DNA of 43,028 nt from a virus. A program made the translations under genes and the position numbers. The stretch covers positions 1 to 43,028 of the IMG/VR virus record IMGVR_UViG_3300017527_000281, one strand, 5' to 3'. Positions within the stretch are counted from its first letter, which is position 1. Each line of letters opens with the position of its first letter. Shown here piece after piece: positions 2-33,964 of this stretch. The notes below the pieces were generated by a model, which saw nothing but the letters and a program-made list of their open reading frames with translations, made no database searches and was not told the DNA's origin.

Positions 2-181
2 GGTGAGATGCGCATAGACTGGCCTATGTTCTGGTTTGGGTGGCGGCGACGATCCGCGCAGATAATGGACAACGCAGGCGCTCCGCCGTGGCTATCCCGT
101 CTACGCTGTCCGAGCTTGAAACGGTGGGGCCGGTTGCTACAAGTGGAACCTACTAGACCCAACGAAAGGAAAAGACAGTGA
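2..181 (+). CDS. Partial small ORF, open at left edge
   Basis: This frame is open from the left edge to a TGA that overlaps the GTG of the next gene (GTGA), the junction style used all over this genome. An internal ATG at position 8 would give 57 residues beginning MRIDWPMFWFGW; the rest is Arg- and Pro-rich. If the contig is circular, the frame continues exactly from the unfinished ORF at 42931, giving about 92 residues. I recognise no family. The GTGA coupling and the continuity across the edges are the main support. What remains uncertain is which start is used. Confidence 0.5.
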   Translation, partial: GEMRIDWPMFWFGWRRRSAQIMDNAGAPPWLSRLRCPSLKRWGRLLQVEPTRPNERKRQ

Positions 182-993
182 CTACTAGAGTTGTGATACT
201 CAGCGACCTACACGCGATGCACCAGACAGGACTCACACATCCCGACTTTGAGATGCGCCCGGAGGACCGGGAGTCGCCACATTTCAAGCTGTACAACATC
301 CGGCGTAAGATGTTCAAGTTCTACAAGGAAACCCTGGCTTCGCTACAGCCCATTGATCTCTTGATCGTCAACGGTGACGCGGTGGAGGGCAAGGGAAACA
401 AGTCGGGCGGCACGGAGGTTCTGACTACGGACAGATCAGAACAGGCCAGTTGTGCGGCTGCGCTCATCAACATGGCTGAGGCCCACGTGGTCGAGATGAC
501 ATACGGCACGCCGTATCACACCGGACTAAAGGAAGATTGGGAGAACGAGGTCGCAAAAGAGGTTGACAACCTGTCTAAGATCGAGTCCACCGGGCACTAC
601 AAGGTGGAGAAGGTCATCATCCAGGCCAGGCACTTTGCCAGCCGGTCCAGCATCCCGCACGGACGTTTCACCCCCATCGCAAAGCAGCACCTTTGGAATG
701 TGCTCTGGAAAGAGCGCGGCGAGTATCCAAAGGTGGACATCATCATCCGGTCCCACGTCCACTACTTCACGCACTGCGGTGAGGCTGATTGGATCGCATT
801 CACCACACCCGCGCTCCAGGCATACTGGACAAAATACGGGACGCGCGTCTGCACGGGGACCGTGGATTTTGGCCTTATGTGGATCGATGTCAACGGGAAG
901 GACTACGAATGGGATTACAGGCTGCTAAGACTTCGCCGTCCAGGCGAGGCCGTCACAGACATCAACAAGCTGCTAACATCCTCACGGAAATAG
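178..993 (+). CDS. Calcineurin-like metallophosphoesterase
   Basis: 271 residues from a GTG start that overlaps the upstream stop. Metal-ligand motifs of the calcineurin-like phosphoesterase fold appear in order: SDLHAMH (D10, H12), NGDAVEG (D67), TPYH (H114, where the family usually has GNHE) and RSHVHYF (H193, H195). The enzyme should be a cytoplasmic two-metal phosphodiesterase or phosphatase. Phages often carry such proteins, with roles proposed in nucleotide or RNA-end processing, but the substrate cannot be read here. It probably ends the rightward early unit together with the next gene. The altered H114 motif leaves the exact subfamily open. Confidence 0.8.
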   Translation: MTTRVVILSDLHAMHQTGLTHPDFEMRPEDRESPHFKLYNIRRKMFKFYKETLASLQPIDLLIVNGDAVEGKGNKSGGTEVLTTDRSEQASCAAALINMAEAHVVEMTYGTPYHTGLKEDWENEVAKEVDNLSKIESTGHYKVEKVIIQARHFASRSSIPHGRFTPIAKQHLWNVLWKERGEYPKVDIIIRSHVHYFTHCGEADWIAFTTPALQAYWTKYGTRVCTGTVDFGLMWIDVNGKDYEWDYRLLRLRRPGEAVTDINKLLTSSRK

Positions 994-1035: not shown

Positions 1036-1629
1036 ATGACGAAGAAAGCGGGCTTGCCGGATATTACGATCCGACGGGTGAAACTGGAAGGCTTTACGCC
1101 GATCATGTTCGACAGGTATGCGGGGGACAACAAGACCCAACTCGAGCCGGGGGAGAAAATGTACTTTGTTCCCGGTACGCAGACTTTATGTCTGCCGACG
1201 ATGAACGTGATGAGTTTTTTGAGCGCACAGAACACGGATAGCGTTGCCAAGCTGATCGGCGGGCGTGGATACAAGAAAATCGCCCAGGCGCTGCTAGGGT
1301 TCGTCCAGATCACGCCGATGCACATTCCCATCACACGGGAAGGTGAGGCTATCGAGTTTCACGGGTTCGTTGACGACAAAGACAAGCAAGCCGGGATCTA
1401 TGTTGACCGTCGCGTGGCGCGGTTGCCAAAGGGCATCCCCAATCCCAAGGTGCGCCCGGTCGTGGATCTGCCGTGGGAATTGTCATTCACGATCCACATA
1501 TTCAAAAATGACGAGTTTGACGAAAAGCTCGTCAAGACCGCGTTTGTGCGCGGCGGGATGGCAATCGGCCTGGGAACGTATCGTGGGCTTTACGGTAAAT
1601 TCATCGTTGCCGAATGGCGCGAGGAATAA
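1036..1629 (+). CDS. Hypothetical phage protein, 197 aa
   Basis: This gene is the last of the rightward unit, 42 bases after the phosphoesterase, with a Shine-Dalgarno-like GGGAGG before the ATG. The product is soluble, with no signal peptide or membrane segment, and is of mixed alpha/beta character. A stretch near residues 100-125 (HGFVDDKDK) and a C-terminal part ending GMAIGLGTYRGLYGKF look well folded. I do not recognise the family. Its last bases border the GGCNN array, so it is the final gene before the convergent junction. Coding is likely from length, ribosome site and context. Confidence 0.75.
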   Translation: MTKKAGLPDITIRRVKLEGFTPIMFDRYAGDNKTQLEPGEKMYFVPGTQTLCLPTMNVMSFLSAQNTDSVAKLIGGRGYKKIAQALLGFVQITPMHIPITREGEAIEFHGFVDDKDKQAGIYVDRRVARLPKGIPNPKVRPVVDLPWELSFTIHIFKNDEFDEKLVKTAFVRGGMAIGLGTYRGLYGKFIVAEWREE

Positions 1630-1634
1630 AGCAC

Positions 1635-1894
1635 GGCTAGGCTAGGCTCGGCAAGGCGAGGCGCGGCAGGGCCGGGCTAGGCTAGGCAAGGCAAGGCAAG
1701 GCAAGGGTAGGTATCATTCAGCGTGGCTAGGCATGGCCAGGCGCGGCATGGCCAGGCGAGGCAAGGCGGGGCAAGGCTAGGCAAGGCGAGGGTAGGTATC
1801 ATTCAGCGTGGCGAGGCTGGGCGCGGCCGGGCGGGGCGCGGCACGGCGAGGCTCGGCGCGGCCCGGCCAGGCGAGGCGAGGCAAGGCGAGGGTA
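1635..1894. repeat. Degenerate GGCNN pentamer array in three blocks
   Basis: There are 43 pentamers of the form GGCNN in blocks of 14 (1635-1704), 13 (1725-1789) and 16 (1810-1889). Each block ends with GGGTA, and the blocks are separated by a constant 15-mer GGTATCATTCAGCGT (1710-1724 and 1795-1809). The two variable bases take at least 13 of the 16 possible dinucleotides while GGC never changes. The phase is kept at 5, not 3. It fills the gap between the convergent operons. Short ORFs across it encode only Ala/Arg/Gly-rich text and are probably not genes. Confidence 0.95.
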
Positions 1895-1926
1895 GCCAGG
1901 GGCATCCTTCTCGGGTGCCCCTGGCT
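1894..1926. terminator. Strong hairpin at convergent gene ends
   Basis: An 11-bp perfect stem (1894-1904 with 1916-1926) extends by a wobble and two more pairs to a 5-base loop, TTCTC. It sits between the end of the GGCNN array and the stop codon of the last leftward gene at 1934. No clear U-tract follows on either strand, so a bidirectional terminator or mRNA 3'-end protection is inferred from position and stability. Confidence 0.65.
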
Positions 1927-33576: not shown

Positions 33577-33791
33577 ACGCAGCGATTGCTCGGACTGGGT
33601 ATGATCAGTCGCGGTCGCGGTCGCGGTCGGGGTCGTGGTCGCGGTCGGGGCCGTGGTCGCGGTCGCGGTCGCGGTCGCGGTCGCGGTCGGGGTCGTGGTC
33701 GTGGTCGCGGTCGGGGTCGTGGTCGTGGTCGTGGTCGGGGTCGCGGTCGGGGTCGTGGTCGGGGTCGCGGTCGGGGTCGGGGCCGTGGTAA
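33573..33791 (+). CDS. Ser-(Arg/Gly/Trp) dipeptide repeat protein
   Basis: 72 residues: MNAAIARTGYDQ followed by 30 dipeptides. The second residue of each is Arg, Gly or Trp (two dipeptides start with Pro), set by the variable base of a TCGNGG hexamer. The ATG overlaps the preceding stop (ATGA) and has GAGGGCACAG upstream, which favours this frame over the Gly-Arg and Val-Ala frames also open through the array. The product is strongly basic and could bind RNA or DNA in a disordered form, like RS/RGG tails. It could also be only a by-product of the repeat. Confidence 0.5.
   Translation: MNAAIARTGYDQSRSRSRSGSWSRSGPWSRSRSRSRSRSGSWSWSRSGSWSWSWSGSRSGSWSGSRSGSGPW
33609..33788. repeat. TCGNGG hexamer array, 30 units
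   Basis: There are thirty consecutive 6-base units with the pattern TCGNGG, in which N is C, G or T (never A); two units begin CCG. All frames on both strands stay open for long stretches. The unit is a multiple of 3, in contrast to the 5-base array near 1.7 kb. Confidence 0.95.
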
Positions 33792-33800
33792 CACTTTACA

Positions 33801-33964
33801 AGTTGATAACGGTGCGCCCGTCGGGGACGGTGCGCAGCAAGCGTGGCGGGTAACGAGGCGTTGCTGTCCTGGTCGCAACCGCCCGCACCGTTTCAAGCCT
33901 GCGCTGGTCGAAGGCTCACGCTCAGTGCGTGGGGTAGGCAACATCTAGGCCAGCGCGGGTTTTC
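33801..33964 (+). ncRNA. Structured RNA element, copy 1
   Basis: AACGGTGCG (33808-33816) pairs with CGCACCGTT (33884-33892); GCCTGCGCTGG (33897-33907) pairs with CCAGCGCGGGT (33950-33960) with two GU pairs, followed by TTTT. The same two stems occur in copy 2 with different interiors. Inside are smaller stems, for example AGCAA/TTGCT and CACGC/GCGTG. The second stem plus T run could end transcription. No protein gene is credible here. Confidence 0.55.

Follow-up and report, generated by a model that had tools for sequence, protein, structure and literature searches.

VIPR, a form of RNA-guided DNA recognition that was reported recently, is a proposed ancestor of the CRISPR RAMPs. As described in the main text of a 2026 preprint (PMC13142463, doi 10.64898/2026.04.26.720920), phages use VIPR against each other. 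Vipr, a small RAMP protein, is led to DNA by guide RNAs named vrRNAs, which are built of 9-16 tandem GGY/NN units (conserved GGY, hypervariable NN) and an invariable tail. The target is encoded in the NN pairs and is read with a one-base skip. In the same text, SUSP1 is the model phage of VIPR, and nuclease vaps are tied to host-defence types. GGY arrays surround ALH47069 in SUSP1.

The window, that is, the whole stretch of DNA analysed here, is a 43,028-bp virus record that is metagenomic and incomplete. It encodes terminase, portal and major head proteins, the terminase and capsid giving remote matches only, and the locus thus lies on a phage contig. Near its start is an array of pentamers that we take, with a probability of about 0.94, to encode the guide RNAs (three vrRNAs) of a VIPR system carried by the phage. 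The basis obtained here consists of the anatomy, strand and position of the repeat, the homology and fold of the adjoining protein, the coupling of such arrays to vipr, and the irrelevance of NN order to folding. The features of the locus are as follows:

178..993, + strand: calcineurin-like metallophosphoesterase (Pfam PF00149), 271 aa, candidate vap
1036..1629, + strand: vipr gene, RAMP protein of 197 aa; profile match to SUSP1 Vipr, predicted Cas7/Csm3 fold
1635..1704, + strand: putative vrRNA 1 guide tract, 14 GGCNN units (TA TA TC AA GA GC AG CG TA TA AA AA AA AA)
1705..1724, + strand: constant separator of 20 nt, GGGTA + GGTATCATTCAGCGT, identical to 1790-1809; putative vrRNA 3' tail and/or next leader
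1725..1789, + strand: putative vrRNA 2 guide tract, 13 units (TA AT CA GC AT CA GA AA GG AA TA AA GA)
1790..1809, + strand: second copy of the constant separator
1810..1889, + strand: putative vrRNA 3 guide tract, 16 units (GA TG GC CG GG GC AC GA TC GC CC CA GA GA AA GA)
1890..1926, + strand: GGGTA cap and 14-bp hairpin AGCCAGGGGCATCC-TTCTC-GGGTGCCCCTGGCT (hairpin 1894-1926, about -30 kcal/mol)

Comparison with known systems

Like the type II VIPR of SUSP1, the locus is carried by a phage and has a Vipr RAMP protein of some 20 kDa, with putative tandem GGY/NN vrRNAs placed in a downstream array with constant separators. It differs in that its Vipr is remote from SUSP1 Vipr and in that its units are all GGC, whereas those of SUSP1 are mostly GGT. 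The separator is 20 nt long and not strongly folded, in contrast to the pseudoknotted SUSP1 tail. The window vipr also has a metallophosphoesterase as its neighbour, a family not mentioned in the main text of PMC13142463, whose supplement lists vap1-6.

The Cas7/Csm3 proteins of type III CRISPR share with the window Vipr an RRM/RAMP fold (Z up to 13.4) and a glycine-rich loop near the C terminus, but the window protein is only about 13% identical to them and its guides lie in a pentamer array instead of a CRISPR repeat-spacer array. Among the window proteins that were scanned, none was recognised as the product of another cas gene. Type III CRISPR-Cas was therefore rejected as an identity for the locus: there is no repeat-spacer array and no recognised cas operon, and the likeness is to the fold of Csm3 only.

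Anatomy and statistics of the array

The array occupies 1635-1894, where 43 GGCNN pentamers form three blocks, of 14, 13 and 16 units. A sequence-only reading of this DNA had described 43 units with GGC fixed and at least 13 dinucleotides in the variable positions, in blocks of these sizes that each end with GGGTA and are split by an identical 15-mer. The coordinates confirm this description. Thirteen NN types were counted, the commonest being AA (9), GA (8) and TA (6), and AA and GA units are concentrated toward the 3' ends of the blocks. The GGGTA caps closing the three blocks are at 1705-1709, 1790-1794 and 1890-1894, and the 15-mer follows the first two caps only, with 1710-1724 identical to 1795-1809. 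We also agree with that reading that simple codon selection, given the 5-base period, and simple slippage, which would give uniform units, fail as explanations. All three block lengths are within the published 9-16 units, and this fit of the repeat to the vrRNA consensus argues for VIPR identity.

Runs of this length are not expected by chance: in 200 first-order Markov copies of the window, searched on both strands, (GGCNN)n runs reached at most 4 units, compared to 16, 14 and 13 in the real sequence. When both strands of the window were searched for GGY runs of at least 4 units, none was found besides the array.

Two features absent from the sequence-only reading flank the array. The stop codon of the + strand gene 1036-1629 lies 5 bp before its start, and the 14-bp hairpin stands just after its end. 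In place of a third copy of the 20-nt separator, GGGTAG and this different hairpin come after the third tract, and the genes beyond 1926 run on the - strand. It is probable that the array transcript ends, or is terminated, at the hairpin. No T-run follows it, and a consensus terminator scan did not list it.

The folding of the array RNA, hairpin included, gave a z of -4.46 against dinucleotide shuffles. Permutation of the NN units left the folding energy unchanged (z -0.6), and thus it is the GGC framework and the hairpin that account for the value of -4.46. The NN bases are therefore not there for self-structure, which supports the assignment to VIPR. No Rfam families were matched at the array, and a tRNA/tmRNA scan found none.

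Elsewhere in the window, a period-6 GTCGCG repeat with 28.7 copies (33600-33790) is a coding arginine-glycine (RG) repeat in an open frame, in which the Arg wobble bases vary. Just past this region, a match to the Rfam family DUF3800-VIII RNA (RF03075) was found at 33893-33964 with 43.5 bits, above gathering.

A predicted Vipr homologue next to the array

Sequence profiles and a structural model predict that gene 1036-1629 encodes a Vipr homologue. A profile of 51 aligned sequences (A1), seeded from the window protein and with SUSP1 excluded, matched PDB 36pp chain D, annotated 'SUSP1 Vipr protein', with E = 7.8e-40. The profile of an alignment of 9 close relatives (A2) matched the same chain with E 7.2e-6 via the C-terminal G-loop region. 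SUSP1 ALH47069 scored 8.7e-8 in the first profile round, before SUSP1 joined the model, and is among the 91 ORFs from array-bearing loci that were recruited by the profile grown from the window protein. The family phrog_4652, which has no function assigned, matches 50 of the 51 family members. A single-sequence search for close Vipr relatives in the phage and viral-contig sets found none; only the family profile reached any.

The AlphaFold model of the 197-aa protein (pLDDT 95.0, pTM 0.88) matched Csm3/Cas7 chains in Foldseek, and its best VIA-align results were with type III Csm3/Cas7 chains (Z 13.4, 163 residues, rmsd 3.4). As modelled, the protein has a RAMP fold with an RRM core and a G-loop. 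The G-loop motif, GGMAIGLGTYRGLYGKF, is close to the C terminus. R140, W147, R183 and G187 are invariant among the 51 homologues, and G174, G178 and G180 are nearly so. The membership of the adjoining protein in the Vipr family and its predicted Csm3/Cas7 RAMP fold are a further argument for VIPR. The sequence-only reading also proposed a search for a protein that recognises GGC every 5 bases, and Vipr, encoded immediately upstream, is the candidate on homology and modelling.

Coupling of arrays to vipr

The pattern (GGCNN)x7GGC matched at least 120 viral stretches, most with several blocks. A vipr ORF was present in 83 of the 120 listed array-bearing viral stretches compared to 5 of 120 genome-contig stretches, a contrast that is indicative only, since a longer search pattern had been used for the genomes than for the viruses. 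The longer-pattern scan of genome contigs returned many high-GC actinobacterial stretches. Long GGCNN runs were observed in actinobacterial and other genomes (L122-L241), mostly without vipr in the stretch.

The A2 profile scan matched 170 relatives, 80 of which were kept, making 81 vipr loci with the window. A GGY array of 6 or more units was found within 1.5 kb of vipr on the same strand in 65 of the 81 loci (window counted) and on the opposite strand in none. Arrays at the homologous loci lie just downstream, and often also upstream, of vipr, with several per contig. In the array-bearing viral stretches, an array that no ORF overlaps often starts 2-30 nt past one gene and stops a little ahead of the following one, and it lies on the coding strand. 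Unit number and NN bases differ freely between relatives. The closest relative, L282, has a Vipr that is 68% identical, and despite unrelated NN units it keeps an inter-array separator similar to that of the window (GGTATTATTC...AGCGTGGC, i.e. GGTAT[CT]ATTC...AGCGTGGC). Both the recurrence of arrays beside vipr and the retained separator point to VIPR.

Uninterrupted GGY arrays of 33-42 units adjoin vipr in L311, L322, L337 and L339, above the published range, and may represent staggered or fused guides. A 48-locus cluster of 'vap1-like' neighbours was dropped because translated array sequence links unrelated ORFs.

Other explanations for the array

The roles considered in the sequence-only reading (iterons, a packaging or segregation locus, an insulator or a diversity-generating tract) found no support, and the evidence favours guide RNAs. 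The period of 5, the constant separators and the location between convergent genes would suit a double-stranded DNA iteron or handle, where a phage protein binds GGC at each half-turn for replication, segregation or packaging. We regard this as very unlikely, since the arrays keep without exception to the coding strand of vipr (65 vs 0), a preference for which a strand-neutral DNA site has no need. The placement of homologous arrays around vipr, several to a contig, and the free variation in unit number and NN also speak against it. Extremely little probability is given to a role in terminating or insulating transcription between convergent genes. The window array does end in a strong hairpin that has a + gene on one side and - genes on the other, but in relatives the array often has genes of the same direction on both sides (27 clean ++ cases), and the GGCNN tract folds no better than permuted units. 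The hairpin may end the array transcript, yet this leaves the GGCNN tract unexplained.

The presence of GGCNN runs in high-GC actinobacterial genomes without vipr, with vipr in only the 5 of 120 stretches given above, is what can be said for a functionless low-complexity pentanucleotide repeat or an assembly artefact. This explanation has a negligible probability given the 13 NN types among the units, the chance expectation of 4 units for the longest run and the array-vipr coupling in dozens of independent contigs. An assembly artefact, raised earlier as the result that would overturn the repeat, is unlikely because similar arrays occur in more than 100 independent viral contigs.

Putative guides and search for targets

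With the array read as three vrRNAs, the guides under the published rule are:

Guide 1: TAxTAxTCxAAxGAxGCxAGxCGxTAxTAx(AAx)4
Guide 2: TAxATxCAxGCxATxCAxGAxAAxGGxAAxTAxAAxGAx
Guide 3: GAxTGxGCxCGxGGxGCxACxGAxTCxGCxCCxCAxGAxGAxAAxGAx

IMG/VR was scanned under the skip rule for exact 16-base matches, using the first 8 units of each of the three guides and later units of guides 2 and 3 (for guide 1, the first 8 only). No match extended beyond chance; as 16 exact bases are needed, a target mismatched in both guide halves would escape these scans. The skip-rule matches that were obtained were rejected as targets because only the first 8 units were shared, the extensions were below the 5% family-wise threshold, and the codon phase was mixed. 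Those of guide 1 belong to two conserved sequence groups, in different frames. No target for the guides was found in 44 related viral records at up to 3 mismatches, and a full-length search with guide 2 revealed no self-target. This negative outcome speaks against the VIPR reading, as does the short separator without strong folding.

A total of 295 guides were compared with all fetched DNA at skips of 0-3. Skip 1 gave 13 matches at 85% or higher and the other skips gave 6, 9 and 10, an excess that was not counted as evidence because two of its top matches had been preselected by skip-1 scans. A 10-unit guide at L063 2380 (array strand) matches L042 at 19/20 bases under the 1-nt skip rule, where about 0.1 such matches are expected by chance across all guides by our own estimate.

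Candidate accessory genes

The neighbours of the array are the phosphoesterase upstream and genes without assignment downstream. The 271-aa protein matches PF00149 with 22.4 bits (E 1.8e-4; cut-off 21.5 bits) and retains the motifs DxH (DLH), GD, GTxxH (GTPYH) and SHxH (SHVH). Phosphoesterase homologues are found beside vipr, on the same strand, in 12 of the 81 loci (window counted). Loci with this arrangement are:

L284/L285, L300/L301, L291, L293, L303/L305, L315, L320, L358

A homologue is beside vipr in L109 too. On the Vipr tree the phosphoesterase label is clustered, yet 5 changes are needed. The archaeal virus vir555 has a phosphoesterase homologue with no vipr or array within the fetched 8.7 kb. 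Therefore, the tie to vipr is not exclusive, and we infer accessory status: the gene at 178-993 may be a vipr-accessory (vap) gene.

In L282 and L283, the two closest relatives, which group with the window Vipr on the tree, the position directly upstream of vipr is taken instead by a T5orf172/MUG113 gene (GIY-YIG-like). This suggests that the phosphoesterase and the GIY-YIG-like protein are alternative accessory enzymes, which may be nucleases. The T5orf172/MUG113 gene is at 922-1200 in L282 and 3712-3996 in L283, and its frame stays open far into vipr, which uses another frame.

Proposed working and meaning of the locus

By analogy with the published system, the array would probably be transcribed from the + strand after vipr, and its transcript would be processed into vrRNAs that form an RNP with Vipr. 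Vipr would bind the constant GGC triplet of every pentamer, and the NN pairs would base-pair with double-stranded DNA, with one target base skipped per unit (xNN). Once bound, the complex would act on DNA from a competing phage or another mobile element, by repression or, where a nuclease accessory takes part, by cutting.

The locus would then be a further member of the already known VIPR systems, possibly with an unusual accessory gene. It is conceivable, but rather unlikely, that its Vipr clade is a VIPR variant in which the phosphoesterase accessory acts as a nuclease and GIY-YIG/T5orf172 takes its place in L282/L283. If true, the guides would direct DNA cleavage in phage-phage conflict, unlike the nuclease vaps that the main text of PMC13142463 ties to host defence. 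The two enzyme families at the accessory position, the metallophosphoesterase and the GIY-YIG protein, are candidates for guide-directed nuclease activity. What the window contributes to the recently reported VIPR is a compact locus of an uncultivated phage, in which three guides can be read, together with a clade of 81 related loci.
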